This document shows, piece after piece, positions 14,178 through 64,000 of a stretch of 64,000 bases of DNA (the stretch's first letter is position 1; the number at the start of each line of letters is the position of its first letter). The notes beneath the pieces are model-generated. The model made no database searches and was not told the DNA's origin. It saw only the letters and a list, made by a program, of their open reading frames with translations. Both the position numbers and the translations under genes were made by a program. Origin of the DNA: Lineus longissimus (lineage: Eukaryota; Nemertea; Pilidiophora; Heteronemertea; Lineidae); contig NC_088319.1 in assembly GCF_910592395.1 (NCBI RefSeq), positions 2,048,001 through 2,112,000 on the forward strand. Reading direction: 5' to 3'.

Positions 14178-14227
<50 letters not shown>

Positions 14228-15260: not shown

Positions 15261-15261
15261 T

Positions 15262-21886: not shown

Positions 21887-21889
21887 CAT

Positions 21890-41926: not shown

Positions 41927-42093
41927 TGTACAGTGGAACCTCTCTATTAAGGACACCCTCTCTATTAAGGACACTAGTTTTGGTCCCAAATTTTGTGTTT
42001 CCATTCTGTTTGTCTTTAATCAGGACACCTCTCTATTAAGGACTGCACTTGTCAGTCCCGAGGGTGTCCTTAATAGAGAGGTGCTACTGTACA
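41927..42093. mobile_element. Pogo/Tigger-like MITE (copy B)
   Basis: This is the duplicate of 2442-2608, with a few substitutions. Confidence 0.65.
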
Positions 42094-44989
42094 TATTTGT
42101 AGTTCCCTCTTCACAAGAACTTTGCATTCATCATTAGTGCTGTTCAAGCAGTGACTCTCATAACTCCACTATATGTACAAACCACTTCTACAATTGTATG
42201 TACATTTCATATATCTGATATAAGGCAACACAAATTTAGTAACTTGGATAGCGGGCTCACCTACGAACCTTTTTCCCCAAAGTTGAAAATACTTTTTTTT
42301 GATACACCCACTGACTAGCACCAAAAGTCACATGTCGACACAAATAAAAATGAAATTTGCATAAAAACACTAGTCTTTTTCGAGTTATTAGAATAAGTAT
42401 CAATAAATCGTCTGTAGAATGACCTAGATACCATAATTGGAAATTTGTCACTGTCGACAAGAATCATGTCATCCTCTACAACACGACTTCTCCTAAGGCA
42501 TGTTTCCCAATTGAGGAAGTAAGTATGCATCCAGGGAAATGGCCTAATATTGTCCGAGACAAGGGGTATTAATAAACAGAGAAACAGAGAAACGAAGAAA
42601 TCCGGATGGAATCAAGTGTGCTGACACGGTTAATTCACAATACATGGACCTCTTGTAATATAGTCATGTGAGGTTTACTTTCATTTTTTCCTTCCACTGA
42701 CAAAGATAAAACTTCATCCTCATCCGCTATCCAATTAACAAAATTGGTTTGACCAATTATACAAAGGGCAAAGTTCCTTCCTGGCAGATTTATTTCAACT
42801 CATATCAACTCTTCAAAATTAACGTGGACTACTTTATGGCAAAACCACAGCGATCTACCCCCATCGACCTGCACAGACCTTCTGAATCAAAACAGTAACC
42901 TGAATATCTTTTTCCTGATACCAAGTACATGTACTTTCTCTTTTTTAGTCATTCATGTGAGTGTACATCAATACTATAAACTTCAAAATGTTAAAAAAAA
43001 TTCGGACTGTTCCTATTTTGGTTTTCTATTTTTCGAATAAAAAATAAATATTTGCCATTTTTTTCTCACAAATCGAGTTTAATCTCAAAATCCCCTGAAA
43101 TAATATGCAGGCAAAAATTGGGCTTTTTCAGTTATGAAAGTACGCATTGAATTGAAGACAAAATTTCGACTGTGATGTTGTGTACACTGTAATAAATATA
43201 TTTGACAGGTAAATTTTTTATCTTTCTGTACGTCTGGTTACTGTTGAGCGGCACTGTTTATTTCTTATTTCCTGTGCCACTAGTAAATACATTGTACACC
43301 AATGGCATTGACAATCATCAAACAGACAACATGCAGAATCATACCGACAAATTAGAATACACACAGGTTCTATAAAGCACTGTGCAAATTACGTCACTCT
43401 GACCTGACAATTATCGCTGTGATGAGCAATAAAAGAATAGCTCATCTGCAGGTAAAACTCATAATCCCTTGGTTTGATAAAGGCTGCAGGTATTGACATA
43501 CAGTTTCATTGCAATAGTGAATTTGAATTTGTTCGTTTTCGAAGACCAAACCCCTGAAACCTAGCACGAAATTACTAGCTGGGTTCAAATAAAACATGAG
43601 CTGTTAAAACCACTTATACCTTGCACGCCCATAGCATATTCAAGTCAAGTCATCCAATGTAAATGAGCAGCTGACATGACAATGCTGCCAATAGCTATCC
43701 CCCTCCCCCATATGTAGTGAAGATTTATAGGCCTTCACTGACCCCATCCCTTGGTATACTCATTTCTAACACCTTACACCCTACGTGCAGTACTCAGCTT
43801 GAGATTTTTCTTGCCGAGTTGTCAGGCTACCTGTCCTCAAATTCTGACTTTTTTATTTGACCACCAAGGGCTGATGACGTCTGCCGCAAAGCACCTCCTC
43901 CTGCTCCGCAAAGGAGATGAAGTTTTAACTTCACAACTATGAACCAATATTTCAATCCTAAGTGTCATGAGGCATGTACTACGGACCCAAATTTCTAATG
44001 ACGTCATTATGTATGGCGGAATACATGGCATTACGTCGTTCCCAATGACAACCAAGAAACATCTAAGAAGTGGTTGAACAGCGGGAGCCAAACCACAAGA
44101 GTCCTTGCCCCCCCCCCCCCCCCCAGGTAGATAAACCTTCATTGATCCCCCTCGACTCTTAAAACCCTAATGCCTACAATGCAGTTTCAAGCTTTGTACC
44201 CAAGGTACTGGCAGTAAAAGTAGCTACAAGAGGCTGACTTGTCAGGCTTGTTTTAAAATCGATCATTGATCATCTGCTACCCGTTGCTGAAAATCACCAC
44301 CTGGCCTTTCCTCAGATATCAATATTTTTCCATTTTCAACTTCCCTCTTCCCTCTTTCCACTTTCCCCTTTTTACATCTTTACCGTAAGTAGAATACAAG
44401 TGTATCTCGCCACCTCACCACACCTCACATTTTTTCACAGGATTCATGGGGGTGCCTGACGGACAGCTATAGTGTTGTGCGAATTCTTTAGAATTGGAGA
44501 GCGAACCAATCACCCTGAAAAAAACGAAAGTATGTTAGATTTTTTCCAAGGAAAAAGGTGTTGTCGGATTAGGTTTTCAACCATTACTTATCATATGCCA
44601 GCAGACACATTGCCAAAAACAAATGAAATGGTCCAGGGACCATGTGCTCACCTCGAGTAATGTTATGCATGTCATTTGCAGTGGATTTGGGGGGAACAGT
44701 TTCAGGCTAGTTTCACCAGTTTTGAATCTATTGAATAATATTATTCTTCTCGGCTCAATGGCACAAAAGAAAACTACCGGTACCATCTAAGTATAGCATT
44801 TTTGTTATAAAGTTGACTGAATTTCAGGGCTATTGAAGAATGTACATGTTACATGGAAATTGGTTGACATCTGTTCAACAGTTAAGGAGTAATAGGATAT
44901 CCAAGATGGCGGCCTGGCGGCCATATTTGTCATGGGATTTGACTGAAAATTAGGGATATTGATAAGATTTACTGATTTATTGTGCCTGA

Positions 44990-45560
44990 CTGGCTTGGTG
45001 TGCCTGACTGGCTTGGTGTGCCTGACTGACTTACTGCACCTGACTGGCTTGGAGTGCCTGACTGACTTACTACACCTGACTGGCTTGGTGTGCCTGGCCG
45101 ACTGACTTTGCCTGACTGATAAATGGGCCTAACTGGCTTGGTGTGCCTGACTGACTTGTTGTGCCAGACTGACTTACTGCGCCTGACTGGCTTGGAGTGC
45201 CTGATTGGTTTGGTGTGCCAGACTGACTTACTGCACTTGACTGGCTTGGAGTGCCTGACTGACTTACTGCGCCTGACTGGCTTGGAGTGCCTGACTGGTT
45301 TGGTGTGCCAGACTGACTTACTGCGCCTGACTGGCTTGGAGTGCCAGACTGACTTACTGCGCCTGACTGGCTTGGAGTGCCTGACTGACTTACTGCGCCT
45401 GACTGGCTTGGAGTGCCTGACCAACTGACTTTGCCTGACTGATAAATGAGCCTAACTGGCTTGGTGTGCCTGACTGACCAACCATGCTAACTGTGCTAGA
45501 CTGCTTAACTGTGGCAGACTGACTAACTGTGCCTGACTGACTAACTGAGCATGACTGACT
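44990..45560 (+). repeat. 36-bp and shorter GACTGACT-type minisatellite, expanded in copy B
   Basis: Repeats contain 'CCTGACTGGCTTGGAGTG' and 'CCTGACTGACTTACTGCG'. Copy A has only a short remnant (about 5040-5180). Both strands are open over 100-150 codons (SKPVRRSKSV-like on minus) purely because of the repeat. Confidence 0.9.
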
Positions 45561-46867
45561 ATTACTTTTCCGGACTGGCTGACTGACTATCTAAACCTGA
45601 CTGACTCACTAAGCCTGACTGACTAATCATGCTTTAATCTGAGCCTGATTGACTAACTGAGCATGACTGACTAATGATGCCAGACTGACTAACTGTGCCT
45701 GACTGACTACCTAAACCTGGCTGACTCACTATAAAGCCTGACTGACTAACTGTTGCTGCTTGCCAACTGTGCATAACTTACTAACAGTGCTGGACTGACT
45801 AACTGTGCCTGAGAGAATAACTGGGCCTGACTTACCTATACTGAGCTGGTGTGTGTGCATCACTGACTAACTGTAAATGGTAGGTCTCCTTGGTCGCAAT
45901 GCTGCACCAAACCTGCAACACAAAACAAACCATGAACAGATGAAATGACCATGGGCCATTGTGTTCACCAGATTAAACTTGTGTAAAGTTTAAACAGATT
46001 GTTCTCTGATACCTTGTTGATTTGGGGAAAGGGAGAAAAAGGGAAAAGTGGAAAAGGTTTTTTTTTGAAAAATGACTAGATGACTTTCCTGAGCAATGTC
46101 ACTATTTCTATAGGTGTTAAGAGACCACTTAAACCATGTAGAACAGCAAATAAGCTTCTCCTTCAAATGACTTCTTCCTTGATTTCTTTGGACAATCTTT
46201 TCTCCACTTTAAGGGGGATACAGGCCAGGACTTTTCAAGAAAATTCAATGCCTTCTAGAGAGGAAAACAACTTCCCGAGAAGATCGTGTGACCAGAGGTT
46301 CAGTGAAAGCAGAACGCTTGTGAGAGTAAGTTTCCTTATAAACCAGAGCTAACAAGTCAAAAACTTTCATACACCTGGATAGATAAATCTTCACAGTTAT
46401 GCCTAATTTGGGCTGATGACATATCAAGCATATCCAAACATGAACTTGGTTGAATCTGATAAAATATCGATTTTTTTAATGGCTTGGCTATATAGGGCAT
46501 GTGTCATGTTGTCAGGGGCACTTTGGGAGAGGCAGCCACTGGAAGATCTCAACGATATTCCCAATTACAATCAGTATGTCTATTACAGCGAACAACTTGA
46601 AAATTAAAGAATATTCGGAACTTTCCTTGCCAACAGCTACTTTTTGGAGTCACCTAGTCTAAAGTAAGTAGATAATTTGGAAATTTTGGAACTATTCATA
46701 GTGGCCATCTTGAAATTCAAAGACTTTTAGCTTGTCGTGGAATGGGTCATGTCCTTGACGGCCATAATCTTAAACTTAAGAGGTTTTGATCATGGTTTAC
46801 ATTGTGTATGTTTATGAAATTTTTCTTTATTTTTCAGCAAGTTTGAGTTCAGTCGTGCTCAACCTGC

Positions 46868-48495
46868 CAGATCATCGACATTTAGGCTAACATTCCTTGA
46901 GAGGACCCTCACGCACACTCACTCATAAAGACCTCATGGCTCTGAATCAACAGGCACTGCAGGACTGAAAATCTGCTCAACACCACAAGAAGAGAGGAGG
47001 TAAGCACATGACCCGGGGCCTTGCACTAGTGTACCACCGCTAGGGATTCCAGCAGTCACAGGGACCAGTCATCACTTTAAGCTGCATCCAGAATTTGCCG
47101 CTCTTGTGTTGCTGAGCCAAGGTATTCTATCATTCTCCATTCGCCAAAAAGCAATGCTGTGGAAATATTTAAGTTCTACAGTTGTCTAAGGTTCCATTAT
47201 TATTCATCACGCAACTCAATACACAATTTTTTTCTCAACCCGCCAGATCATCCACACTCAGGCTAACACTCCTTGAGAGGACCCTCACGCACACTTACTC
47301 ATTAAGACCTCGTGGCTCTGAATCAACAGGCACTGCAGGACTGAAAATCTGCTCAACACCATAAGAAGAGAGGAGGTAAGCACATGACCCGGGGCCTTGC
47401 ACTAGTGTACCACCACTAGGGATTCCAGCAGTCACAGGGACCAGTCATCACTTTAAGCTGCATCCAAAATTTGCCACTCTTGTGTTGCTGAGCCTGGGTA
47501 TTCTATCATGCTCCATTCGCCAAAAATTAATGCTGTGAAAATATTTAAGTTCTACAGTTGTGTGAGGTTTCATTATTATTCATCACGCAACTCAATACAC
47601 AATTTTTTCTCAATCTGCCAGATCATCCACACTTAGGCTAACATTCCTTGAGAGGACCCTAACGCACACTTACTCATAAAGACCTCATGGCTCTGAATCA
47701 ACAGGCACTGCAGGACTGAAAATCTGCTCAACACCACAAGAAGAGAGGAGGTAAGCACATGACCCGGGCCCTTTCACTAGTGTACCATCACTAGGGATTC
47801 CAGCAGTCACAATAACCAGTCAGCAGTTTCAGCTGTATCCCCTACTTGCAACTCTGCAGCCTAGTTATTTCTATCATGCTCCATTCGCCAAAAATTAATG
47901 CCGTGAAAATATTTAAGGTCTACAGTTGTCTAAGGTTCCATCATTATTCATCACGCAACTCAATACACAATTTTTTTCTCAACCCGGCAGATCATCCACA
48001 CTTAGGCTAACACTCCTTGAGAGGACCCTCACGCTCACTTAATACTCGTGAAGACATCGTGGCTCTGAATCAACAGGCACTGCAGGACTGAAAATCTGCT
48101 CAACACCACAAGAAGAGAGGAGGTAAGCACATGACCCGGGCCCTTTCACTAGTGTACCATCACTAGGGATTCCAGCAGTCACAGGGACCAGTCAGCAGTT
48201 TCAGCTGCATCCCCTACTTGAAACACTGCAGCCTATTTATTTCTATCAATATCATGCTCCATTCGCCAAATATTAATGCTGTGAAAATATTTAAGTTCTA
48301 CAGTTTTCTTAGGTTCTATGATACTCAATAAATAATTTTTTTCTTCATTTTTCAGTAAGTTTGAGCCGAGTCGAGCTCAACCCTGCCAGGTCATCTATGC
48401 AGTTCCCATGAGGACCCTCGCACGTACTCACTCGTAAAGACCTCATGGATCGTACTTCAACAGGCATTGGACTGAAAAAACTGCTCAACACCAAG
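46868..48495 (+). repeat. Tandem array of about 365-bp exon-like units (copy B)
   Basis: Units start near 46868, 47243, 47616 and 47985, with a diverged fifth from about 48385. They have the same acceptor-like CAG|ATCATC and donor-like GAGGAG|GTAAGCAC signals as 12050-13640. Unit number is the same in both copies, unlike the ankyrin array. Confidence 0.7.
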
Positions 48496-48663
48496 ACATG
48501 AGAATAGTGAGTTTTTGATAGAGAGTTTTATATATTGCTTGTCACTGTACTGTTTACTGTATGAAACTGCTCTAAAATCGCACACATTATCATCTAGCCT
48601 GTCCAAAGACCTTTCTGGAGAACCAAGGGCAGCCACAATCTAGCGCACACAAGGACTTTTCAG

Positions 48664-48696
48664 GTCAGTTGAGAGTTACAAAATGGCTCCGGCCAG
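48664..48696 (+). CDS. Candidate first coding mini-exon of paralog B
   Basis: This has the same structure as 13814-13846: acceptor TTTTCAG, ATG at 48683, donor CAG|GTATCG, leaving two bases that fit the phase of the exon at 57875. The intron would be about 9.2 kb, against 4.4 kb in A. It needs transcript support. Confidence 0.35.
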
Positions 48697-48917
48697 GTAT
48701 CGAAGACGGGACCGCCGCCGGATCACAAGATTGATGCTCAACTGTTGTGACCACGATGCTAAGCACATGACCCCGGCCCTTGCACTAGGGTTTGTAGCCC
48801 CCCCCCCCCAAAATTCCATCAGCCAGGGTGTCGTGCATCTCTCGCTACACACCACCACCGACGCCTAATAAAACGTTTTAATCACTTTTCTCAAGGAAAA
48901 ACAAATGTCCCTTTTTT

Positions 48918-50810
48918 CAAGGACAAGTTGCACAAATAACCAACCAAACGAGCCAAATAGTTTCTCAAAATCAATATCACTGATTTCTTACCATTTCTAA
49001 AGGATCGATTGGAAAAATTCCCAACCAATCGAGTTAAATGCTTCCTCAAAATAAAAATTGTACTGATAAACTAGGGATATTTTTCCTCTTCTAAAGGACA
49101 AGTTGCAGAAATTACCAATCAACCAAGCCAAATAGGTCTCAAAATTAAGTTAACTGCTTTGTCATAGTCAAAGTTTACAAATATCTCAATGATTTTTTGC
49201 CATTTCTAAAGGACCAGTTGCAAAAATTCCCAACCAATTCAGTTAGATACTCTTCCAAAATCAATATCAACTAATATCTCTTGGATATTTCTTAATTTCT
49301 ATGGGCTGAGTTGCAAAAATTCCCCACCGATCAAGTAAAATGCCTTCTCAAAATAAAAATTGTACTACATACTGGGGATATTTTGCCATTTCTAAAGGAC
49401 CAGTTGCAAAAATTACCAATCAACCAAGCCAAATAGTTTCTCAAAATAAATGATTACAGACATCTCACAGATTTGTTTTCCATTTCTAAACGACTAATTG
49501 GAAAAATTCCCCACCAATCGAGTTGAATGCTTTCTCAAAATAAATAATGTACTTATATACTAGGGATATTTTTCCATTTCGAAAGAACCAGTTTAAAAAA
49601 TTACCCATCAACCAATGAGCCCAATAGTTCTTAAAATCAAGTTATAAAGTGCTTTGTCAAAATCAAAATTCACTGATATCTCACAGATTACTTTCCATTT
49701 TTAAAGGACCAGTTGAGTAAATACTTTACCAGGTATATTTTTCATTTTGTATAATAAAATATACCAGATCACAAATCGCAATATGTATATTTGTAAATCT
49801 ACCATCTAAAATTTGTCATGCTCGGACAGAGACAAGACCACAATTGATTTTTTAAGCCTTTCAGCAGTTAAATTGTCAATGTTTGACCGCGACGCATCAA
49901 ATACTGCGTATATGGTTGTGAATTTGAAATTTTTATATGATATTCAGGACAGTGGGGCAAGTAAATGGTGAAAAATAAACTGGTAGTTGACCACGGAAAT
50001 TTTTTGATAATCGACAAATTAGACCGACATTGATATTTCCACTCTTTTCAGCCAACTGGCAGAAAAATCTCAAAACACGCCCCCTATTACCAAATTAGCA
50101 AAATTCGAAATTAATTTTTTCATCAAATAATTTCTTTATATCTGTAGACTTGCCACAACAAATATTTTTTCAATGCCTCTCCAAATATGTACTTGAGAGT
50201 TAAAAACATGCACTCGTCTAATTAATAGGCCTCGACCCTCCAACCTATGAATATTCATTAGTGGTCTTGTCTCGACATCAAATATGGCCACCAGGCAGCC
50301 ATCTTGAAAAGTAAACAATGTCCTTCTACTCTGAAACTAATGATCTGATTGGAACCAAATTTCATGTAATTTTATATGTATGTACTCTCTACAGCATCCC
50401 TGAATTTCAGTCAATATGATAACCAATATGGCCACCAGGAGGCCATCTTCAAAATTAAACAAAGTCCTATTTCTCTAAAACTCATATTCGGATTGCAACC
50501 AAATTTCAGGTGAATGTGTATCTTAGTTCTCTTTACAATATCCTCAATTTTCAGTTAAATCTGAAGACAAATATGGCCTCCAGGCTGCCATCTTGAAAAT
50601 TCATCCAAGTCCTATTACTCTTTAACTGTTGAACAGATGTCAACTAATTTCCATGTGACATGTTCATGTACACTCTACAATAACCCTGAATCTCATGAAC
50701 AATATGTGGATATGGCCGTTAGGTGGCAATCTTGAAAATTCGATAAAATTTTTAAATTCTCCATAAAAGCTGCACTACCACACCACTTCCTCTATGATTG
50801 CAAAATTGAC
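48918..50810 (+). repeat. Degenerate repeats upstream of paralog B
   Basis: This is an expanded counterpart of 15262-16150. It has more 'CTAAAGGACCAGTTGCA' units (48918-49720), a unique AT-rich stretch (49720-50280) with no gene, then 'GGCC.CCAGG.GGCCATCTTGAAAA' units. Confidence 0.6.
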
Positions 50811-51114
50811 TTTAATGACCAAAACTGTTTCCCCATATCCACTGCAGAATACACCCACTAACATTACCTGAGGTGAGCACATGGTCCCTGGACAATTTCA
50901 TTTTGTAAATTGATTATGGCCTGTCTTTGGGATATAGATAACCGGTCTGGGTTTTTCCGAGTTAAATGCCTCAAGCATTAGGTCAAGAAATTATCCCACT
51001 GAACCTTTGGCAATATTTGGCAGTTAACCCCCCATTACCGAGTAATTCTGTCCCACTTCAAGTGTTTCTATACTTCTTTGAGTAATTTTTCCCCACTTCA
51101 AGTGTTTCAGACTA

Positions 51115-52215
51115 GACTTGAATATATGAAAATAACCTTTTGTCACAATAATTTTTTATCAGTTTTTCGAAACATGATCTGACTGGTCCGCATTGATCTG
51201 AAGGGTAAGACATGATGATGTGATCAAACCAGGAATTTTGAAGTTTGTTATTTCAAATCTTGATTTTGAATCTCGAACTACAAATCTGGAGTATGCTTTC
51301 TGGGCTTTAGTATAAACGACACCTTATTGAACCTGCTGGGGTACCTAAGTCTGGAAATATGTCACTGGCCTTTGCACGATCATAAATGCAGATATAAGAT
51401 AAAACAAATTGAAAACAAAAAATTGGTCCAATTTTTTATCGATATTATAGGAATTCATGCGATACCAGAAGTAGGTTGTTTTTTTCGTGTCACCTGGTAC
51501 CAACTTGATCAAGTTTCAAGTTGTTGTTTTGGGTCAAAATATCTTAAAGGGCGTGTTTAGGCAAAGCTGTAAGTAGCCCAGGTACTGTACAGACAACGTT
51601 TAGTGATAACGTTAAAGGGGGACGATAGGCAGGAGCCGAGGGGGTAATTTGGTCATTTTCAGGTGACTTATATACACAGTGAGGGCCGTCATGTCAGATT
51701 CAGCACTAAATGTATTCCTCGTACAAGCGCGAATCATTTCTGTGAGATATGAGAGACCTCTATTGGCGACTTAATGTAACTTTATCTTGCCTACCTAGCT
51801 GCTGCCTATATTGTCCCTTTAAAGCCAAATCTAATATGGGTACAAGTGAATTTAGCCCAATGATTTTCTCTTGAAACTGCTATCCTTAAGTTGATTTTCC
51901 CATGTTGATGTAAAAGTTTGGGAATTTCTTTTGCTTCAAAAGTGCAATCATATTATGAAATTATTAATGGTGGGGAAGAACACTGAGGAGTGTGCAGTGT
52001 CTTTGTTTCTTATGTCGCATTTCAACAATTTCATTGATTAATTTGTGAAAATCAAACCCGGTTAAGATAATTGATTTCGCCAGCAAATGAATATGGTTCA
52101 TAATGTCAGTTATAACCTGTGCACAGTAAAAAACTGCCAATACAACCCACAGATATATTGAGAGTTTTGAACAGTAACCTTGAATAAATGACCCTCTTTT
52201 TCTTTTCACAGTTTT
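51115..52215 (+). repeat. Internal duplication of the paralog B upstream region
   Basis: This is a diverged direct copy of 56620-57790 (and of A 16360-18110), including the family 1 MITE at 51616-51818 and the C-run near 52220. It stops short of the giant exon, so the coding region was not duplicated here. Confidence 0.8.
51616..51818. mobile_element. TTAA-flanked MITE (family 1)
   Basis: TTAA lies at 51612-51615 and 51819-51822, with family ends as at 9365. It was carried along by the internal duplication. Confidence 0.75.
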
Positions 52216-52489
52216 AAGCCCCCCCCCCAAAACACTGATCAAAATGTCAGTTCATCTTAATCCCATACTGCAAGGGTTCTAAGAATTGAAATATTTTTGT
52301 ATGTACTACTAGCAAGGATACGTCACATATTGTACAGGTTTTCGATTTGACCTACTTTTCAAGGTCGCAGAGATCAAAGTTCGCTTAATCACCGTTTGGT
52401 TGCATGTTTCATTTCTATTTGAGCTAGTAGGTTTTAAACATGTGTGGATATGTATCTAGTGACCCAAAAATTTGTCATGCTCGGACATC

Positions 52490-53275
52490 AAATATGGCCA
52501 CCAGGCAGCCATCTTGAAAATTTAACAATGTCGTTTACTCTGAAACAAATGATCGGATTGGAACTAAATGTCATGTAATTTTATATGTATGTACTCTCTA
52601 CAGCATCTTTGAATTTCAGTCAATATCATAACCAATATGGCCGCAAGGAGGCCATCTTGAAAATTAAACAAAGTCCTATTTCTCTGAAACCCACTTTCGG
52701 ATTGCAACCAAATTTCAGGTGATTGTGTATCTTGTCTTTACAATATCCTCAATTTTCAGTTAAATCTGATGACAAATATGGCCTCCAGGCCGCAATCTTG
52801 AAAATTCAACCAAGTCCTATTACTCTTTAACTGTTGAACAGATGTCAACTAATTTCCATGTGACATGTTCATGTACACTCTACAATAACCCTGAATCTCA
52901 TGAACAATAATAAGTATATGGCCTCCAGGCTGCCATCTTGAAAATTCAACCAAGTCCTTTTACTCTTTAACTGTTGAACAGATGTCAGTTAATTTCCATG
53001 TGACATGTTCATGTACACTCTACAATAACCCTGAATCTCATGAACAATAATAAGTATATGGCCTCCAGGCTGCCATCTTGAAAATTCAACCAAGTCCTAT
53101 TACTCTTTAACTGTTGAACAGATGTCAACTAATTTCCATGTGACATGTTCATGTACACTCTACAATAACCCTGAATCTCATGAACATTATGTGGATATGG
53201 CCGTTAGGTGGCAATCTTGAAAATTCAATAAAATCTTTAAATTCTCCATAAAAGCTGCACTACCACACCACTTCC
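52490..53275 (+). repeat. 140-bp tandem repeat (GGCC.CCAGG family)
   Basis: Units start GCCTCCAGG at 52781, 52921 and 53061 with exact 140-bp spacing, inside a longer degenerate stretch of the family also seen at 15690 and 50280. Confidence 0.85.
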
Positions 53276-53443
53276 TCTATGATTGCAAAATTGACTGTAA
53301 TGACCAAAACTGTTTCCCCATATCCACTGCAGAATACACCCACTAACATTACCTGAGGTGAGCACATGGTCCCTGGACAATTTCATTTTGTAAATTGATT
53401 ATGGCCTGTCTTTGGGATATAGATAACTGGTCTGGGTTTTTCC

Positions 53444-54207
53444 AATTTCAATTTCAATTTCAATTTCAACAACTTTATTGAGAACCAACATAAAATTATA
53501 TACATAGTAAAACAACAGTGATGAAAATACAAATAAAACATATGGTCGAAATAACAGTAAAACTAGGTGCCCAAAAGGGAGCGCCAAAGGGTCAATTAAG
53601 ACCCATTCACGGGACCCCTAAAAGAGTATAATAATTTTAATAAAACATGTAAAAGCATTCTTTTAATAGCGGCAAAAAGGACACCTGCAACGCCCAACCC
53701 ATGAGCACGCGTTGTCCGGGTCAAAACGCTCCATCAGCTGGCTTTCATAAAAGGCACACTCATAGGCAGGGCATTCCACGTGCCCTCCACACGATTAAAA
53801 AACGACCGGCAATATGTCTCCGTTCTACATCTAGCACCACGTATAAGAAGTGGGTCACCCCTCCTTTCTCTAAAAGATATATATTTTGAAGTGTCCAAAT
53901 CGATTTTACCGATAAAGCAATTGTGCAAAAAATTGAGGTCAGCCATCTCCCGCCTGTAAGACAAAGGTAACATAGACATAACAGAGAGCCTCTCTTTGTA
54001 ACTTAGTTCTCCACCTAACATATGCCTTGTGGCTCTGCGTTGAACCCTTTCTAGCTTGACCAAGTTTTCCCTCGTGATATGATCCCAAGAAACGGAATTA
54101 TATTCCAATTTTGACCTGACAAGGGATTCAAATAACGCACGCATTAATTTCGGGCTCCTTTTCCTATCAAACACACGCTTAATCGTTGCCCAAGTCTGAT
54201 TTTTTAA
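53444..54207 (-). mobile_element. 5'-truncated CR1/Jockey-type LINE with target-site duplication
   Basis: The minus frame from 54207 to 53734 encodes the C-terminal part of a non-LTR reverse transcriptase ORF: LVRSKLEYNSVSWDH, KLERVQRRATRHMLGG, RLSVMSMLPLSYRREM, RSFFNRVEGTWNALP. It is followed by a 3' UTR ending CTCAATAAAG and a (TTGAAA)n-type tail. A 14-bp duplication, GTCTGGGTTTTTCC, flanks it at 53430-53443 and 54208-54221. A related unfilled site is at about 50945-50965. The catalytic core is missing, so it is inactive. Confidence 0.9.
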
Positions 54208-54496
54208 GTCTGGGTTTTTCCGAGTTAAATGCCTCAAGCATCAGGTCAAGAAATTATCCCACTGAACCTTTGGCAATATTTGGCAGTTAACCCCCCATTC
54301 CCGAGTAATTTTGTCCCACTTCAAGTGTTTCTATACTTCTTTGTTCAATTGTTCCCTTTATATTCTTGACCCTCTTCAGCAGAAAAAGAAACAATTTCAA
54401 TTTGTTCTAAACACCTCTGCTCTTTTATTTAGCGCTTTTAGTAGAACAATTGATTTTTTTCTGGGAATTTAGAATTTCATTTTGACAAGCAGTAGT

Positions 54497-54600
54497 TCTA
54501 TCTATCTATCTATCTATGTATCACATTTATATAGCGCCCTTATCAGTCCTATATTGGGCCGTTCAAAGGCGCTTAACAAAAACAGAGTCTCTATAAGAAG
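54497..54600 (-). mobile_element. SINE/LINE 3' end with TCTA microsatellite
   Basis: A (TCTA)n run, then TATATAGCGCCCTTATCAG and GGCGCTTAACAAA. Reversed, this is the common 'GCGC...TATA' tail of SINEs followed by a GATA-type repeat. Confidence 0.5.
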
Positions 54601-56420
54601 TATATAGTCTTTGACAACAATAAACAATTCTAATGTTCGTAATGTTGTTGAAAAAGGTGTATCATTCAGCTACTAATTTTATTCCTCGAGGTCAGTTTGA
54701 GGAGGAAGTCATTACTTTCTTCACCTTGTTCATGCCATTCTCAGCTTAACTGTGTTTTACAACTTGCTATCATTTATAATTTGCATTAATGTATACAACC
54801 CCATGACCCAATTTGATTTGAGCAATCATAAGAACTATTTCAGTAAAGGCAAATAATGACAGTATTTTACAGATTAAATCATCTTATCACAAGTGTACGT
54901 ATTTGAAATATCACAATACATATGACGGCAGTATTTTGAATAATTCGTATTTGTTCATATTGAGTACTAGCATAGTACCCGTTCTGTGGACGGGTTATTG
55001 AGGGGATTTGTTTCCTGTAATGCATGCCAATTTTAGAAGTCCCCAATACCACTGACGAAATTCAATGTATTGATGTATACATCTTGGCTCGGATTTCCTG
55101 GTCAAATTCGTCTTCCAAGCAATTCCAAGTTTACATATAATTAAAACAACATTCCACATATAACCATAGATGACTTCCTACTACGAAAAACAACCTCTTC
55201 CCTCCCAATTTCGAGAACACTCCGGACAAACCTCACCACTTTCTCCTTTTATTGTATAGATTTCATGAAGCTATAAACAAATCATAGCAAACGACTTAAT
55301 CATGTTTATCTCATGTGGTGCGTTAAGGGAATCAAACACGACGCTTGCAAATACCCATCCAACAGCAACGTGTCTGCATTCTTCATACAACTGAGCAGTT
55401 GTCCATATTTCCGCGCATAAATTTGGACAAGAACGTTGCCAAATGGTCAAATATCAGAATTTTCATCATTATTTAGTCACCACTTTTATTAGATGGTAGA
55501 ATATTAACATCTATAAGTAAGTAAGTACTGAGTAAGTAAGTGAAATCAAATTTGAAAGGTGCTGTTTCCACTAAGAATGTAAATGTTCAAGAGGGCCCCA
55601 CACCCGATAGTCAATAATCAATTAACTCCCGATCATGCCCAAACCTGGCCACAGATGTCAAGTATCTCATTAACACAATCTGCAGAGACAACTGATTTGG
55701 CAATAACCACAGACAGTGCCTTTGTCCTTAAAGGTCATCTCTTTGACATTGAATGCACAAAGTGCAACTATGATGACTTTGTTATTTTTCTCAGCGTTCA
55801 TATTTGTCACTGTCACGTTTTCACAGGTTGATTCATAACCTTGTTGACAGTGAGCACTTATTTTACCCTTGAAGTATTGTGGTAAGATCACAGCAAAAAC
55901 CACTTCACAAAGCAAATAAAAGACAGACAACCCAATTATGTATCACACCCATCAAGATATGTGCCAATGTGGACCGAAACTCCCCCATATGTGATGGAGC
56001 TCAAATGGATAGTTAAAGGTTATTACATGTTTTTGTCTGTATCCTTCGTGAGGCTTAATATTCCCTAAATTTGTAATCGCAGTCTGGTGACCATATTGGG
56101 TTGAGGTTGGTTAGTTGACAGCATTGCCTTGCAAGAGAGCCCTTAAAGAGATCCAGTTGTGACTTAAGTCTGTATTAAAACTAGCTGAACATAGTAAAAA
56201 TAACTAAATTAGTGATTACCTCTTTTGCACTTCATTGACTGGAGTCAGTAATGTTATGCAACGTTATACAACGTTACCCTGATGTCCAGCTCACATAAAC
56301 AACTAGCAGAGGGGAACTTGAAACTGCTGATATTTATGAACGGAAGCTTATTCCAGCCTTAGGTTTTAACTGGGCCGTTCAAAACTCCTCATTTTTATAA
56401 GCGTTGCGCTACAGGGTTCC
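54601..56420. other. B-only spacer, no intact gene
   Basis: This sequence is absent from copy A. A short plus frame at about 55583-55790 includes GHLFDIECTKCNYDDF, which faintly resembles the zinc-binding region of class III sirtuins, but there is no supporting domain context. Otherwise nothing recognisable was seen. Confidence 0.45.
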
Positions 56421-57177
56421 TTTAATGCAGCAGACCAGACTGTCTAATATCGCAGTTAGAACTTGTGGCAATTTTTACACAATCTCAAGTCTGTCATGTC
56501 TGTGACACCATGTGACAGAGGTTCAATGGTCTGACATGATCACAGGGATAAACACACTCTGCCAAAACCATGACACATATGTGTCTATCCAGATTGGTTA
56601 AGTGCCCCCCCCCCCCCCCCCCGACTTGAATATATAAAAATCCTTTTGTCACAATAACTTTTTATCACTAATATCAGTTTTTGAAAACATGACCTGACTG
56701 GTCCGCTTTGATCTGAAGGGTGAGACATGATGATGTGATCAAACTAGGAATTTATAATTTGGTATTTCAAATCTTGATTTTCGAATATTGAATTACAATT
56801 CTGGAGTTAGCTTTCTGGGCTTTTGTATAAACGACACCTTATTGAACCTGCTGGGGTGCCTTAGTGATGAAATATGTTAATGGCCTTTGAACGATCAGAA
56901 ATGCTGGTATTAATAAGATAAAACAAACTGAAAACAAAAAATACTGATATCAGCTCCATTTGGCCGCAATTTGTCCAATGTTTTGTCGATATTATAGGAG
57001 TTTATGGATACAGAAGTAGGTTATTTTTTTTCGTTTCACCTGGTACCAACTTGATCAAGTTTCAAGTTGTTTTGGGTCAAAATATCTTAAAGGGGAGTGT
57101 TTAGGCAAAGCTGTAAGTAGCCCAGGGATTACTGTAAGCATTGGTTCTGTACAGACAACGTTTAGTGATAATGTTAA

Positions 57178-57366
57178 AGGGGGACTTTAGGCAGGAGCAG
57201 AGGGGCTAATTTGGTCATCTTCAGGTGACTATTAAATATACACAGTAATGGTCCTGGGTCATGTCAGATTCAGCACTAAATATATTCCTCGTACAAGCGC
57301 GAATCATTTCTGTGAGATGTGAGAGACCTCTATCTTGCCTACCTAGCTGCTGCCTATATTGTCCCT
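57178..57366. mobile_element. TTAA-flanked MITE (family 1)
   Basis: TTAA lies at 57174-57177 and 57367-57370. It is orthologous in position to 16916-17104. Confidence 0.8.
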
Positions 57367-57874
57367 TTAAAACCAAATCTAATATGGGTACGACTGAATT
57401 TAGCCAAATGATTTTCTCTTGAAACTGCTATCCTTAAGTAGATTTTCCCATGTTGATGTAAAAGTTTGGGAATTCCTTTTGCTTCAAAAGTGAAATTATT
57501 AAAAATTATGAAATTATTAATGGTGGGGAAGAACACTGAGGAGTGTGCAGTGTCTTTGTTTCTTATGTCGCATTTCAACAATTTCATTGATTTATTTTGT
57601 TCAGAGAAACTTTCTGCACTTGAATTAAGATCAAACCGGTTAAGATAATTGATTTCGCCAGCAAATGAATATAGTTCATAATGTCGGTTATAATTTGTGC
57701 ACAGGAGAAAACTGCCAATACAACCTACAGATATATTGAGAGTTTTGAACCGAAACCTTGAATAAATGACCCTCTTATTCTTTTCATAGTTTTACCCCCC
57801 CCCCGTGGTCATTTATTGCCAAATCTTTCATCAATCTTCGGCTGGGAACTTTGCAGTATATCATCATCTTGCAG

Positions 57875-60800
57875 GTTAAAACGGCATGCAGATGAAAAGA
57901 AAAGCCCAGGAGACAGTGAAGCTGGTTCCAGAAAGCGCAAACTCGAGAATAGAAACGACAAGCTTGCTTCGAACATGGAAGAAAATCAACGAGGACAGAG
58001 TGGACTTGGAGCAGACAAGCAGGAGGGTCATGACGCCAAAGTCGATGGAACTGGAACAGGACAGGGTCACAGGAAACATAAAGCTGTGGTAACTGGAGAT
58101 GGAGTTAAAATTGATTTGGAGACTGTTAATAGAGCCTTTCTTGAATTAGCAGAGAAAGGTCGTCCAGATACTGTCAAGATATTGATAGATGCTGGGGCTG
58201 ATGTTAATGCCAAAGACATTAACAATGACATACTCTTGCTTGCATCAGCATCTGGAGGTCATTCTGATACTGTAAAGATATTGATAGATGCTGGGGCTGA
58301 TGTTGATGCCAAGGACATTAACAATGTCACACCCTTGCTTGCATCAGCATCGGGAGGTCATTCTGATACTGTCAAGATATTGATAGATGCTGGGGCTGAT
58401 GTTGATGCCAAGGACATTAACAATGTCACACCCTTGCTTGCATCAGCATCTGGAGGTCATTCTGATACTGTAAAGATATTGATAGATGCTGGGGCTGATG
58501 TTGATGCCAAGGACATTAACAATGTCACACCCTTGCTTGCATCAGCATTGGGAGGTCATTCTGATACTGTCAAGATATTGATAGATGCTGGGGCTGATGT
58601 TGATGCCAAGAACACTGACAATGACACACCCTTGTTTGTATCAGCATGGAGAGGTCATTCTGATACTGTCAAGATATTGATAGATGCTGGGGCTGATGTT
58701 AATGCCAAGAGCACTAACAATGTCACACCCTTGCTTGCATCAGCATTGCAAGGTCATTCTGATACTGTCAAGATATTGATAGATGCTGGGGCTGATGTTA
58801 ATGCCAAGAACACTGACAATGACACACCCTTGCATTATTCAGCATGGGAAGGTCATTCTGATACTGCCAAGATATTGATAGATGCTGGGGCTGATGTTAA
58901 TGCCAAGGACATTAACAATGTCACACCCTTGCTTGCATTAGCATGGGGAGGTCATTCTGATACTGTCAAGATATTGATAGATGCTGGGGCTGATGTTAAT
59001 GCCAAGGACATTAACAATGTCACACCCTTGCTTGCATCAGCATGGGGAGGTCATTCTGATACTGTCAAGATATTGATAGATGCTGGGGCTGATGTTAATG
59101 CCAAGGACATTAACAATGTCACACCCTTGCTTGCAACAGCATCGGAAGGTCATTCTGATACTGTCAAGATATTGATAGATGCTGGGGCTGATGTTGATGC
59201 AAAGGGCACTAACAATGTCACACCCTTGCTTGCATCAGCACAGGGGGGTAATTCTGATACTGTCAAGATATTGATAGATGCTGGGGCTGATGTTAATGCC
59301 AAGAACACTGACAATGTCACACCCTTGCATAAATCAGCATGGGGAGGTCATTCTGATACTGTCAAGATATTGATAGATGCTGGGGCTGATGTTGATGCCA
59401 AGGACACTAACAATGACACACCCTTGCTTGCATCAGTACGGGGAGGTCATTCTGATACTGTCAAGATATTGATAGATGCTGGGGCTGATGTTGATGCCAA
59501 GGACACTAACAATTTCACACCCTTGTTTGCATCAGCAGAGGAAGGTCATTCTGATACTGTCAAGATATTGATAGATGCTGGGGCTGATGTTGATGCCAAG
59601 AACACTTACAATCAAACACCCTTGCATTATTCAGCATCGAAAGGTCATTCTGATACTGTCAAGATATTGATAGATGCTGGGGCTGATGTTGATGCCAAGA
59701 ACACTAACAATGACACACCCTTGCATTATTCAGCATCGGTAGGTCATTCTGATACTGTCAAGATATTGATAGATGCTGGGGCTGATGTTGATGCCAAGAG
59801 CACTAAAAATGTCACACCCTTGCATTATTCTGCATCGAAAGGTCATTCTGATACTGTCAAGATATTGATAGATGCTGGGGCTGATGTTGATGCCAAGAGC
59901 ACTGACAATGACACACCCTTGCATTATTCAGCATGGGAAGGTCATTCTGATACTGCCAAGATATTGATAGATGCTGGGGCTGATGTTGATGCCAAGACCA
60001 CTAACAATGTCACACCCTTGCATGCATCAGCATCGGGAGGTCATTCTGATACTGTCAAGATATTGATAGATGCTGGGGCTGATGTTAATGCCATGGACAC
60101 TGACAATGTCACACCCTTGCTTAGATCAGCACGAAGAGGTCATTCTGATACTGTCAAGATATTGATAGATGCTGGGGCTGATGTTGATGCAAAGGGCACT
60201 AACATTGACACACCCTTGCTTGCATCAGCACGGCAGGGTTATTCTGATACTGTCAAGATATTGATAGATGCTGGGGCTGATGTTGATGCCAAGGACACTG
60301 ACAATGACACACCCTTGCTTGCATCAGCACGGCAGGATTATTTTGATACTGTCAAGATATTGATAGATGCTGGGGCTGATGTTGATGCCAAGGACACTAA
60401 CAATGTCACACCCTTGCATCAAGCAACTAGAAGAGGGGATTTACAAGTAGTTGTGGGACTCATACTAAAGGGGGCTAATGTGAATCTTAAGAACAACTGT
60501 GGTGTGATACCTATTCATCTGGCAGTAGAAGGTAGATACATACAAATCATAAATGAACTAATGAACAAAACTGATTTAGCTGACCCTGGTGCAGTCTCGA
60601 TATTTCACTCTTTATTACTGGAAACTGATATTGGTATGCTGAAGATTATGTGCCGCAATTCATTAGTCCATCGTGCTTGTGGCAATTACGGGAGGACCTT
60701 ACTCCATGTTGCCGGACAACTCGGCTGCCATGAATACATTCAACATTTAACAACATGTGATGGAGTCGAGGTTAATCACAAAGATCACTTTGGAAAGAGT

Positions 60801-62561
60801 TCACTCCACTACGCCGTAGAGATTGGGAATGAAGAGACAATACATGAACTTCTAGAAGCTGGTTGTGATGTTCATGAATTAGACTTAACACGGAAGTCAG
60901 TTTTGCACCATGCTGCAATAAATGGACACTGCAATCTTATAGGATTTTTCATTGAAAAATATAGGTTAGATCCATATCAGGCGGATGTTTATCTCAGGAA
61001 CTGTCTCCATTATGCTGTGATCTATCGAAATGAGGACGTAGTGGCCCTGTTGATGGAGAAATACAGTGATCCTAGGAAGGATGCAAGGGACTATCGAAAC
61101 AAGACACCGACTGACTACTTGCATCAGTGTGAAGAAGGCAGTTTGACATCAAAATACCTTCGAGGCTGGACATCAGGAGTTACTGCAATTGAGCTTGGTA
61201 ACACCAAAAGTGATGATCATACTGCCGGAGAATGCTCTGATATTACAAATATTCCTGACTTGTGCAAAATTTCAGAACAACCATACATTGGGTCTGTAAT
61301 GACAATCACAGGACACGATAATGTAAAATTTGTCAAATATGTTAAAGAAAAGGTGCAACAAGTTATAAAAGAGGTACTACCACAGATCACGGAAGTGGAG
61401 GTTATTGGGGTTGGAAGTTCATTTGAGGCATCAAAGCATGGCATGCCTGATGAATTTGATTTTTTGGTGAAGTTGGGACATATTTATTTTGAAAAATCTG
61501 ACAAACATGAAGGATATCAAAATATGAAGAATTTTTTTTTCATAGATAAATCTAAGGAACCTGAGGTCATTGGGTCATATGGGATGTGGATGTGGAGCAG
61601 ACTCATGGAATATTGGAGTGATTGCGTATCAAACGGAAAGGCCACACAAAGTGATGGTGATCGCAGCTTCTGTATGTTATCGCCACCACAGAGACATCCT
61701 GATCGTAAAACCTGCACGACATGGATCTGGCTGTACAGTGATGAAATGTTTACCGACTTGCCAATATCAATAGACTTGGTGCCTGCCATTGAGGTTGACA
61801 TCGATGGACAGGGAGACTGGACATCAGCATTGATGATTTTTAAGAGAGAAGAGTGGAAACAACCAAAAAAGTACATAGTTCCTAAAATTCCATACAGGAC
61901 CAGCACGGTAGCACAAAACATTAAACCTGACGAACTTAATCAGCTTGGGCGAATCTCCTACCCAACAATAGAGGTGGATTACCTCAAAGCTTTGGATAAA
62001 CGGGTGAAGGTTGTCTTCATCACAGCAAAATGTGTGAGAAAGGCCGAGGTATGTGGCTTCAAAATTAAAAGCAACAAGGGTGATATGGTATGTGGCTACA
62101 AAATTAAAAACAACAATGTCAATATTAAGTCGGTCAGTGAGTTAGTAACCAGCTACAGATTGAAATCTGTATTCTTGCATCTGGTTGAACTGTTCCTGAA
62201 GTCAGACATGTCCCTCGGGAAAATGGTCCTGATGGTGTATGAACATTTAGAAAAGTGTCTCGAGAGAGATAATCTACCAATGCCCATGGATAATGAGGTC
62301 AATGTGTTAGCTGGGTCCAAGCTGAGTACAGAAGACAGCCTCCAGGTGACCAGGATCATGGCAAGGTTTGTCAGGCGTCTGTACGAGAGGGATGTCTCAG
62401 CTGAACAACGGGAGAGAGACTCAAGAGAAGAGGCTCGGGGACTAACGAAACTAAGAGCAGAGTACGAGTGGGAACTGTTAAGATTGACTGGGCCAGACCC
62501 TGCTGTTGATTATAAACCAACACTGAATCCAGTCCTGTTTCCAAAGCTTCCCAGGTGGTGA
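57875..62561 (+). CDS. Ankyrin-repeat cGAS-like receptor (Mab-21 nucleotidyltransferase), paralog B
   Basis: This is one giant exon from the acceptor ATCTTGCAG|GTTAAAACGG to the stop at 62559, with no in-frame stop. It has the same plan as paralog A: an NLS-like basic lead, then 23 near-identical ankyrin units (58161-60437), about six diverged ankyrin repeats, then the Mab-21/cGAS-like domain. GSSFE is at 61413 and DEFDF supplies the first two acidic ligands at 61452 and 61458. The third Asp is in SIDLV, near 61773. SYRLKSVFLHLV is also present. A Cys- and Lys-rich insert (VCGFKIKSNKG, MVCGYKIKNNN) lies where cGAS has its zinc thumb. The protein ends LFPKLPRW, unlike A. All catalytic residues are intact. 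Likely function: nucleic-acid or other ligand sensing coupled to nucleotide second-messenger synthesis; ligand and product unknown. Confidence 0.92.
58161..60437 (+). repeat. Ankyrin unit array, 23 x 99 bp
   Basis: Twenty-three in-frame 99-bp units, 2277 bp in all. The segment encoding SDTVKILIDAGADV is almost invariant in DNA. Variable residues sit at ankyrin positions 1-3, 5, 9-10, 13 and 14. Units 7-8 and 18-19 share TDNDTPLHYSAWEG followed by the rare HSDTAK, a trace of block duplication. Units 11 and 21 share the rare codon string GATGCAAAGGGCACT. Confidence 0.95.
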
Positions 62562-62786
62562 CATTCAGTTACATCACACCAGTTTCTTTCTCGGTGTAGT
62601 TCAACCCTTTCTTCTGGAGACATAACCATGAACCTTTCAAAGCTGAATAAATGATAAATGCACTTAAGTCTATATGCTTGCAGCAAAAAGTCCTTATGTC
62701 TCCTCAAATGCGTGGTTCTGCAATATATTGTGTCTATTCAAGCATTGTAGGTCTCTGGTAGCGCCTTGGGGACGGAATCCAAGCTG
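62562..62786 (+). other. 3' UTR of paralog B with polyadenylation signal
   Basis: AATAAA at 62646-62651 lies about 85 bases after the stop and is the best candidate signal. From about 62690 (TTATGTCTCCTCAAATGCG) the sequence matches what is coding in paralog A. Confidence 0.6.
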
Positions 62787-62996
62787 AGGTTCCTAATGTA
62801 ACCAATGGTTAACAACCACAGGCTTCGTCATCAATGATAACTGTTATGAATTCGGTGCTCATTGACTGATTGAGTTTATTTAGCTCATGTGTAAGTAACT
62901 CAAATGAAATGGCTACGGCCGTGTGTGAGGATCGGATCAATCTTTCGCAGACAAGTTATAACCATTCTGCTAAAGAAACATACTATATATGGGTAT

Positions 62997-63235
62997 GGGG
63001 CAGAAGCAGCACAGTGGAAGAGAGTCGGCCTCTGGATCGAGAGGTCGTGGGTTCGACTCCCAGCTAAGTCACTGCTTGGTTACCTGACTGGTCGAGTTCA
63101 AGTGAGCGTCTTCTGGTTGCTCCTTGAAATCCGTGATTGATTTCTGTGGAGGCCAGGTAATCATATGGTACCCCAAAAGTGCTTTGAACAGGGAAACATT
63201 GAAAAGCGCGATATAAGAACTCAACGTGATTATTT
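62997..63235 (+). mobile_element. tRNA-derived SINE (copy B)
   Basis: The B-box GGTTCGACTCC is intact, and the body and GAAAAGCGCGATATAAGAAC tail match 21645-21886. It is the less mutated of the two copies. Confidence 0.7.
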
Positions 63236-64000
63236 TATCATAGTTTATACTGGCTGATTTGCCAAATATCATTTGACTGTTGTGACCTTGAATATTTGGT
63301 CAAATCTAAGGTGCTCAGCTGACAGATTGGGGGTGGGCCAATGAAAATGAGCCCACAGCTGCATGTAAATATGGAATTGTGCAAATAGTATCAGAGCTGT
63401 TACTTAATTAGCTTCCAACAATCATTTAGCACAGCTTAGTTAAGAATAACATTTAAACAATTTTTTATAATTTGTTTTAATGAGCTTGTTTCATGTGTTA
63501 TTGAGATGTTGGATCAGCCACTCAAAAACATGTTTGTGCTGGGCTATTTTTGAATTTCTGTCCCCAGGTGAATTTGTGTTGTAATACAAATGTAGTTGTT
63601 ACATGTACTAGATTTCTTTGTGAATCTAATGTTATTATCTAAATTCAGATTTTGGACTCCAGACTGGGAACAAACATAATTAGTTTTCCTCTCTGTGATG
63701 ATGAATGCATATTGAATTTATGAAGTTTTTGAAGCCAAATAGCAAACTCATGCCATTTAATCTCTTTGACCTCGAACAGTAGGTCAAATGAAAAACTTGT
63801 ATGAGAGGTGCCTATGATGATAATACTGTCATTGATTGAAGATTTGCTGCACTTTTTATGTTTTAAGTTTTGGCCCTCTGGTGGCTAAATTAAGGGTCAG
63901 ATTGAACTGAAATTAAGTGTCAAAGGTCATCTGACCGAGGGGATTATGTGTACAAAATTTGAATTTCATAGGAGGTTATCTTGATATCAAACATACCTTA

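Follow-up and report, generated by a model that had tools for sequence, protein, structure and literature searches.

Analysis of the window (the whole 64,000-nucleotide stretch of DNA that was analysed) revealed two genes of the same architecture, gene A and gene B. Each encodes an ankyrin repeat array followed by a domain that resembles Mab-21/cGAS-type enzymes. Each lies in one copy of a duplicated segment. The features are as follows.

57875..62561, plus strand: gene A, ankyrin array and Mab-21/cGAS-like domain; single open exon frame, stop at 62559-62561
57975..57977, plus strand: first in-frame ATG of gene A, the candidate start if no exon further upstream provides it
58167..60443, plus strand: 23 tandem 33-amino-acid ankyrin repeats (99-bp units), in register
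60444..61250, plus strand: about eight divergent ankyrin-type repeats (counted by eye) and linker to the enzyme-like domain
61251..62558, plus strand: Mab-21/cGAS-like domain, 436 amino acids (Pfam)
61413..61427, plus strand: GSSFE motif
61425..61529, plus strand: best Mab-21 (PF03281) stretch, EFDF acids included (Pfam)
61449..61463, plus strand: DEFDF, presumed metal-binding acids 1 and 2
61767..61781, plus strand: SIDLV, presumed metal-binding acid 3; 102 residues between EFDF and IDL
62121..62321, plus strand: Mab-21_C (PF20266) stretch, C-terminal helical part (Pfam)
18207..21435, plus strand: gene B, second copy of the same architecture; 7 in-register repeats at 18499-19191, enzyme-like domain at 19999-21306
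1..22708, no strand assigned: left copy of the duplicated segment, with gene B; identity to 39381-64000 is 91-99% in the main pieces and 84-90% in some
39381..64000, no strand assigned: right copy of the duplicated segment, with gene A; similarity persists to the window end

No stop interrupts the reading frame of gene A between 57762 and the one that ends at 62561 (1599 codons). A candidate splice acceptor AG is positioned upstream at 57873-57874, and the ATG at 57975 has an A at -3 and a G at +4. An initial annotation of this DNA had described about 30 ankyrin repeats joined, in one exon, to a domain carrying GSSFE, DEFDF and SIDLV with all metal ligands present. The 23 in-register and approximately eight divergent repeats agree with that count, and all three motifs were located in frame with the array. 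The single exon is supported to the extent that a plausible acceptor precedes the open frame, the start being a candidate and a further exon upstream possible; likewise, the three acids are there, their role as ligands being assigned by motif.

Gene B (18207-21435, plus strand) does not appear in the initial annotation. It has 7 in-register repeats compared to 23 in gene A. Alignment of the two genes revealed no gap over 2,728 coding bases, and both frames are intact, on which grounds a pseudogene was rejected. All six matches of at least 1,000 bases that lie wholly outside the genes contain 17 to 71 gap letters each. As a tentative but serious possibility, genes A and B may represent two haplotypes of one locus that were split by the assembler, in which case the repeat numbers of 23 and 7 would reflect a length polymorphism between alleles. 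The silent divergence between the genes is 1.65%, and most outer flank matches have approximately 1.1 to 1.5% mismatches, a level that is possible between haplotypes of heterozygous marine animals; moreover, the similarity between the copies is open at both ends of the window. However, within approximately 16.7 kb (22708-39381) no match to the other copy exceeds 250 bases (E value of 1e-20), and from one matched piece to the next the offset changes by kilobases. The matches near the genes differ by approximately 3.6 to 4.1% mismatches, and part of the upstream flank occurs in a third, older copy at 51115-52228. These observations favour repeated tandem duplication.

The 33-amino-acid repeats were identified as ankyrin repeats by Pfam (Ank_2, E value of 9e-184 for gene A and 2e-77 for gene B) and by matches to ankyrin and DARPin chains in the PDB, to which the repeat register aligns (e.g., DARPin chain 6mol, E value of 1.6e-141). 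A single-sequence structure model of the ankyrin part of gene B had a mean pLDDT of 56.2, with values below 50 nearly everywhere outside the homogeneous repeats; the latter were modelled as beta strands with block pLDDT values of mostly about 75 to 92. Read literally, this beta-strand model would argue against an ankyrin fold; it was rejected as an artefact, since solved chains of ankyrins and DARPins match the repeats and the prediction method is weak on near-identical repeats supplied without an alignment. Pneumo_ncap, CsrA and VWA_3_C, which exceeded the Pfam cut-offs in or beside the repeats, were also taken as repeat artefacts. Neither NACHT nor NB-ARC was found among the 11 and 9 Pfam families of the two proteins (E value of 0.001). 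The mean pairwise amino acid identity of the repeats is 0.891 in gene B (6 repeats) and 0.797 in gene A (22 repeats, with a mean identity to the consensus of 0.86). With respect to the threshold used for fungal NLRs (repeat identity above 85% over at least 100 amino acids), gene B lies above and gene A below in pairwise identity, a measure that differs from T-reks.

The 436-amino-acid C-terminal domain, scanned as a whole against Pfam, matched Mab-21 with an E value of 0.019 and Mab-21_C with an E value of 0.0029. When the halves were scanned separately, these families were the best match of the respective half (Mab-21, 0.0025; Mab-21_C, 0.0014), and the second half also matched NMD3_OB (0.03) and DUF3337 (0.052). 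Mab-21 is followed by Mab-21_C in the correct order in both gene copies, all matches being under the gathering cut-off of 24.1 bits; the whole-protein Pfam scan at an E value of 0.001 found neither family. One reversed and two shuffled control sequences matched neither family: the reversed and one shuffled sequence had no Pfam match, and the other shuffle matched NDUFV3 at 0.28. In the accessible text of PMC10732462, membership of the cGLR superfamily is defined by the Mab21 Pfam domain (PF03281), for which the domain scores 15.5 to 18.4 bits and thus stays below the cut-off. The cGLR definition in PMC9980059 includes homology across the NTase core and the C-terminal helix bundle, as well as resemblance of AlphaFold2 models to known cGLR or CD-NTase structures. 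The cGLR active-site motif given in the accessible part of PMC9980059 is h[QT]GS X8-20 [DE]h[DE]h X50-90 h[DE]h. The corresponding sequence here (GVGS, X11, EFDF, X102, IDL) departs from it in two points, a V at the place of Q/T and a third gap of 102 instead of 50 to 90 residues. Scanning gaps of 40 to 114 residues revealed hydrophobic-acid-hydrophobic sites only at 47, 102, 108 and 110.

A PDB sequence search with the domain revealed no cGLR, and the only match in a PDB profile search was a carrier protein (E value of 1.1). NCBIfam had no match to copy A and a single unrelated one to copy B (0.25), nothing was found with PADLOC, and PHROGs gave two weak matches to families without assigned function. 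The viral contig collection contained no pattern match and no relative among 32 returned stretches, and no relative was found among 73 stretches returned from the genome contig collection; these two collections thus lend no support to a viral or bacterial origin of the gene. An AlphaFold2 model from a two-sequence input had a mean pLDDT of 31.8 and was unusable. Overall, the sequence matches support the classification of the C-terminal domain as a putative remote, sub-threshold relative of Mab-21/cGAS. The cGAS-like enzyme of the initial annotation is therefore supported as a Mab-21/cGAS-like relative fused in frame to ankyrins, but not as a protein with the strict cGLR motif, and its catalysis and STING-type output stand as proposals. 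Of the checks proposed there, the HMM search was clear for Ank_2 and returned Mab-21 and Mab-21_C as best matches under gathering, whereas structure prediction yielded a usable model for neither the domain nor the array. The sub-threshold Mab-21 matches, the lack of a PDB cGLR match, the motif deviations and the two unsupportive structure models speak against the receptor model described below.

The deviations from the motif are also what would be expected if the Mab-21-like domain were a docking or signalling scaffold instead of a working synthase, with the array binding a target and the domain relaying the signal by protein contact. There is a precedent in shrimp: according to the available text of PMC12928593, no cGAMP synthesis by the shrimp Mab21 proteins was seen under the test conditions, and they bound neither dsDNA nor dsRNA but activated IKK-epsilon directly. 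Against this role, the three presumed metal acids are retained in both gene A and gene B, and the two copies agree at every one of the domain's initial 82 residues, which span the GSS...EFDF stretch, with the differences located elsewhere, although this long identical run is not significant (P = 0.07). We consider the scaffold role unlikely. The domains of the two copies differ by 28 nonsynonymous and 4 synonymous changes, the latter being too few to judge.

To describe the variation of the array, 28 of the 30 units of genes A and B were analysed; each array was used without its final repeat, so that gene A contributed its first 22 repeats and not the 23rd, a boundary repeat. All 28 repeats differ in DNA, and the eight variable positions form 26 distinct residue sets among them. 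The mean entropy was 1.31 bits at the six positions randomised in DARPins, compared to 0.31 bits elsewhere (permutation P = 0.00085). Codon models gave 2dlnL values of 96 when a FastTree topology was used and 191 with a star tree. Omega exceeded 1 at repeat positions 1, 3, 5, 10, 13 and 14, to which the star tree added position 9. The framework codons are nearly invariant and alternate with the variable codons inside the same half-repeat. Such recurrent amino acid change at contact codons within an almost frozen framework is not predicted if the array only targets or scaffolds the protein and the enzyme domain is the actual sensor of dsDNA or dsRNA, as in known cGLRs. In the available text of PMC9980059, dsDNA and dsRNA are the activating ligands named and ankyrin modules are called predicted protein interaction domains, both in line with nucleic acid sensing; the same text also includes a cGLR of unknown ligand. 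Nucleic acid sensing by the domain is judged improbable.

Recombining repeats inflate the codon test, so that its nominal P values are unusable. The test was also run on 60 null arrays simulated under repeat duplication, repeat loss and gene conversion, 20 of them with eight codons mutating eightfold. The statistic exceeded 5.99 in 27 of the 60, but the maximum was 35.8, and none reached the value of 97.5 obtained for the real repeats with the same test code. This set replaced an earlier one that overshot the divergence (identity of 0.73 to 0.85 versus 0.91), in which 10 of 24 simulations exceeded 5.99 and the highest value was 26.6. At equal parameter number, a selection class was superior to a hypermutable neutral class (lnL of -578.75 versus -599.44 and of -780.36 versus -812.97). 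The variable codons alone, by minimum counts, carry 31 nonsynonymous and 5 synonymous changes, a nonsynonymous share of 0.86 compared to 0.78 expected from sites, which is no strong evidence. It is very improbable that the variation has no binding role and arose only through turnover of the array, relaxed constraint or local hypermutation. Recombination is expected among tandem 99-bp units, neutral turnover inflates the test, and codons 13 and 14 are enriched in synonymous changes (5 of the 9 in the minimum count), but omega above 1 is beyond the reach of relaxed constraint, the hypermutable class was worse by 20.7 and 32.6 lnL units, no simulation attained the observed value even with eightfold-mutating codons, and variable and near-invariant codons are interleaved.

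Across the 28 repeats, diversifying selection is strong at codons 1, 3, 5, 10, 13 and 14, and the framework has hardly changed. The selected codons appear to coincide mostly with the expected contact positions of the solenoid, as placed by homology and by repeat numbering; four of the six are at DARPin-randomised positions, codons 1 and 10 being the exceptions. The changes thus lie mostly where ankyrin arrays normally grip their targets, as if recognition were being diversified. The initial annotation had proposed the array as a recognition module, and this part of its proposal gains support from the codon-level pattern and the null simulations.

Whether the gene product is a fast-evolving, probably immune-type intracellular receptor, with the array as variable binding face and a Mab-21/cGAS-like output, is in our estimate evenly balanced. 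In such a receptor, the long ankyrin solenoid would present the variable face and bind a non-self or pathogen-derived protein. Binding would switch on the C-terminal domain, which would have a nucleotidyltransferase fold and provide the output, as an active enzyme with most likely a cyclic nucleotide as product. Through array turnover, in which repeats exchange unequally or convert one another, repeat orders and lengths would be renewed, and new contact residues would be retained by selection. A more specific version is put forward only tentatively: an animal receptor that would carry its specificity in an ankyrin paratope diversified in the germline, much like a DARPin library of natural origin, and would link it directly to a cGAS-like enzyme producing a second messenger. 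Such a protein would be cGLR-like and sense proteins (pathogen effectors or non-self markers) instead of nucleic acid, a strategy of fungal non-self NLRs that would have been reached independently.

The initial annotation was unsure whether this architecture had been characterised. Ankyrin-cGLR fusions, including Stylophora pistillata proteins, are published in PMC9980059, the available text of which gives no function for the ankyrins; it also describes large cGLR sets in some invertebrate genomes, some members having unknown ligands and some having ankyrin arrays. Like gene A, these proteins combine ankyrins with a Mab-21/cGAS-type nucleotidyltransferase and three presumed metal acids, whereas genes A and B differ in the two motif points and the sub-threshold Mab-21 score. 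A long, homogeneous, length-variable array under contact-site selection is not described for cGLRs in that text. The fusion is therefore already known, and what is new here is the evolution of the array, i.e., its length change and contact-codon selection. No cGLR/Mab-21 ankyrin array under selection was reported in the titles and abstract beginnings among the listed matches in open-licence literature, which is weak evidence of absence. The shrimp proteins are likewise invertebrate Mab21 relatives and act in antiviral signalling, but signal by protein contact, and ankyrins are unmentioned in the available text (PMC12928593).

Fungal NLRs with ankyrin, TPR or WD repeats of high internal conservation, discussed in Podospora as non-self recognition (PMC4986451, available part), share near-identical repeats, differences in repeat number and positive selection at the concave face. 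A similar combination was found here, the selected codons being placed on that face by homology, with 23 versus 7 repeats in copies that are possibly paralogues or alleles. In contrast to the fungal proteins, no NACHT/NB-ARC was found, a Mab-21-like domain takes the place of the output module, and the DNA apparently comes from an animal. If the array is a selected recognition surface, the residues to test are named, protein instead of nucleic acid ligands are predicted for the ankyrin cGLR subset, and a second kingdom would use near-identical repeat arrays as rapidly changing immune specificities. The randomised positions of DARPins form the binding surface, which is concave in one account among the excerpts available. 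The array is natural; its variable positions 2, 3, 5, 13 and 14 are among those randomised in DARPins, position 33, also randomised in DARPins, hardly varies, and positions 1, 9 and 10 vary in addition.

Analysis of the frame at 57762-62561 (+) revealed 1599 codons, all open, that carry gene A, an ankyrin array followed by a C-terminal Mab-21/cGAS-like domain. The start at 57875 proposed in the initial annotation, made by a model from sequence alone, fits an AG splice acceptor at 57873-57874; the earliest in-frame ATG is at 57975. The ankyrin repeats were matched in Pfam with an E value of 9e-184. The array consists of 23 repeats in exact 99-bp register, beginning at 58167. Behind these lie about eight repeats of divergent sequence, a number obtained by eye, and then the C-terminal domain of 436 aa. 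Gene B, positioned at 18207-21435 (+), has the same architecture with seven in-register repeats.

The repeat comparison covered 22 units from gene A and 6 from gene B; the boundary repeat that closes each array was set aside. The array data come from two loci. All 28 repeats are distinct in DNA. Positions follow the numbering of designed ankyrin repeat proteins (DARPins); in an alignment check, the register agreed with 6mol and other chains. Variation is found at positions 1, 2, 3, 5, 9, 10, 13, and 14, with N/D changes at 31, and the eight variable positions form 26 distinct residue sets among the 28 repeats. The amino acid is invariant at positions 8, 18, 19, 21-25, 27-30, and 32. Framework codons 4, 6, 7, 8, and 12, located between variable ones, show no synonymous changes and at most one amino acid variant each, and codon 11 shows one synonymous change and two single amino acid variants. 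Mean entropy was 1.31 bits at the six DARPin-randomised positions versus 0.31 at the others (permutation P 0.00085); randomised position 33 is nearly invariant.

Site models M1a and M2a were fitted with our own implementation on a FastTree tree and a star tree. M2a was preferred over M1a with 2dlnL values of 96 and 191, respectively. The omega >1 class contained positions 1, 3, 5, 10, 13, and 14, and the star tree added 9; positions 3, 5, 13, and 14 correspond to DARPin-randomised ones and 1, 9, and 10 do not. A hypermutable neutral class (omega fixed at 1, raised mutation rate) gave a far poorer fit with an equal number of parameters, and a model with both selection and a raised mutation rate brought next to no gain. 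Nominal P values are invalid because the repeats recombine. For the null, 60 simulations were run in which blocks could be duplicated, deleted, or converted, with identity matched to that observed. In 27 of the 60 null sets, the textbook threshold of 5.99 was exceeded; the top value was 35.8 and the top omega 6.0. The same test code applied to the real array gave 97.5 with an omega of 14.4 (16-21 in separate site-model fits). The distance between 97.5 and the null maximum indicates that diversifying selection on the array survives the main known artefact, repeat recombination. Codons 13 and 14 hold 5 of the 9 synonymous changes, a higher density than elsewhere, so selection there may be accompanied by a minor local effect on rate.

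A Pfam scan of the whole gene A protein revealed no Mab-21 family at an E value of 0.001. Scanned by itself, the gene A domain matched Mab-21_C at 0.0029 and Mab-21 at 0.019. The corresponding values for gene B were 0.0061 and 0.0066 with a longer fragment and 0.0035 and 0.0058 with the same 436 aa. The first half of the domain on its own matched Mab-21 as the sole family (0.0025); the second half matched Mab-21_C best (0.0014), followed by NMD3_OB (0.03) and DUF3337 (0.052). The per-model chance for each half is near 1e-7 (E divided by 24,736 models). The reversed domain and one shuffle returned no families in Pfam, and the other shuffle returned one unrelated family at 0.28. The half-domain matches and controls are good evidence for a predicted Mab-21 family domain, as named beforehand in the initial annotation, with all Mab-21 and Mab-21_C scores below the curated Pfam cut-off. 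A sequence search of the PDB found no cGAS-like receptor (cGLR), and the AlphaFold2 model of the domain was uninformative. Three motifs of gene A are relevant here:

61413, + strand: GSSFE
61449, + strand: DEFDF
61767, + strand: SIDLV

The cGLR motif published in PMC9980059 is h[QT]GS X8-20 [DE]h[DE]h X50-90 h[DE]h. The gene A domain reads GVGS, X11, EFDF, X102, IDL; the acids are kept, and the Q/T and the last spacing depart from the requirement. Because of these two departures, the predicted domain is named Mab-21/cGAS-like and not cGLR as defined by that motif.

The left 22.7 kb of the window pairs piecewise with 39381-64000; identity is 91-99% in the main pieces and 84-90% in some others. 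The duplication unit is longer than visible because the match runs on at the right end of the window and the left copy is truncated by its start. Genes A and B may be neighbouring genes or two haplotypes of one locus. Their post-array coding parts (684 codons, minus the last 30 or so) differ with a dS of 0.0165 (N 40, S 7), and the enzyme-like parts with N 28 and S 4 (398 codons). The aligned coding block has no gaps in 2,728 bases; six of six matches of at least 1,000 bases wholly outside the two genes contain 17-71 gap letters, and shorter ones contain none to 50. Starting at the RLKRHAD codons, directly after the acceptor, the two genes are identical over the 294 bases that lead up to the array. 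In a fixed frame, 25 of the 406 leading domain residues differ, compared with 17 of the final 30. The divergent C-termini lie at 62469-62561 (gene A) and 21217-21435 (gene B), and the gene B frame continues into sequence resembling that past the gene A stop. Sequence exchange with a further family member, itself unseen, could account for these ends. The upstream flank of the ankyrin genes recurs at 51115-52228 as a third copy that is partial and older (84-90% identity); tblastn with the gene A protein revealed no gene body beside it.

According to PMC9980059, 87% of about 3,000 cGLRs stand alone, ankyrin or TPR modules are attached to some, and ankyrin-fused cGLRs are named in a coral; on that account, the architecture class is already known. 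In PMC4986451, ankyrin, TPR, and WD repeats of fungal NLRs are reported to be highly conserved within an array, polymorphic in number, and under positive selection, with the selected ankyrin sites mapping mostly to the concave surface; in metazoa, only 0.8% of repeats of these kinds are so highly conserved. The array of genes A and B resembles the fungal repeats described there in this combination of features, with a different output domain. Among the best 60 of 146 matches, the solved chain 6ne1 ("Pfs, NACHT and Ankyrin domain protein") matched the gene B array with an E value of 2.6e-44.

In the proposed mechanism, the array would be a selected surface, with selection shown statistically and surface position taken from homology. 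The pattern of selection, together with the precedent in fungi, suggests that the array binds a protein that varies and is probably of foreign or rival origin. Target binding would switch on the C-terminal domain, which might form a cyclic nucleotide; this is plausible from the three acids and weakened by the two motif departures. STING or a relative is a candidate recipient of the signal. Rival outputs are documented: Mab21 proteins of shrimp pass on a signal with no cGAMP detected (PMC12928593), and cGLRs of choanoflagellates show activity in the absence of nucleic acid (PMC12424679).

Gene content suggests that the DNA is from an animal. Elsewhere in the window, the stretch 26850-28700 on the minus strand holds parts of an M13 (neprilysin-type) peptidase gene (Pfam 2.6e-6 for 26850-27278) next to a tandem array (27928-28587). 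This array repeats the segment with the zinc-site sequence and its variants about five times in 116-bp units; it may supply alternative exons for the active site, or it may have decayed. Reverse-transcriptase-like LINE remnants were recognized by eye at 53737-54240 (-) and 6774-7307 (+), neither with a Pfam match at an E value of 0.01. A tRNA-derived, SINE-like element, also seen by eye, lies around 62995-63100 with the box-B-like GGTTCGACTCC. A tandem array of 376-bp units is present in both duplicated segments (12038-13467 and 46858-48316), and long arrays of 74-bp and 18/54-bp units occupy 32138-33083 and 44981-45478, respectively.
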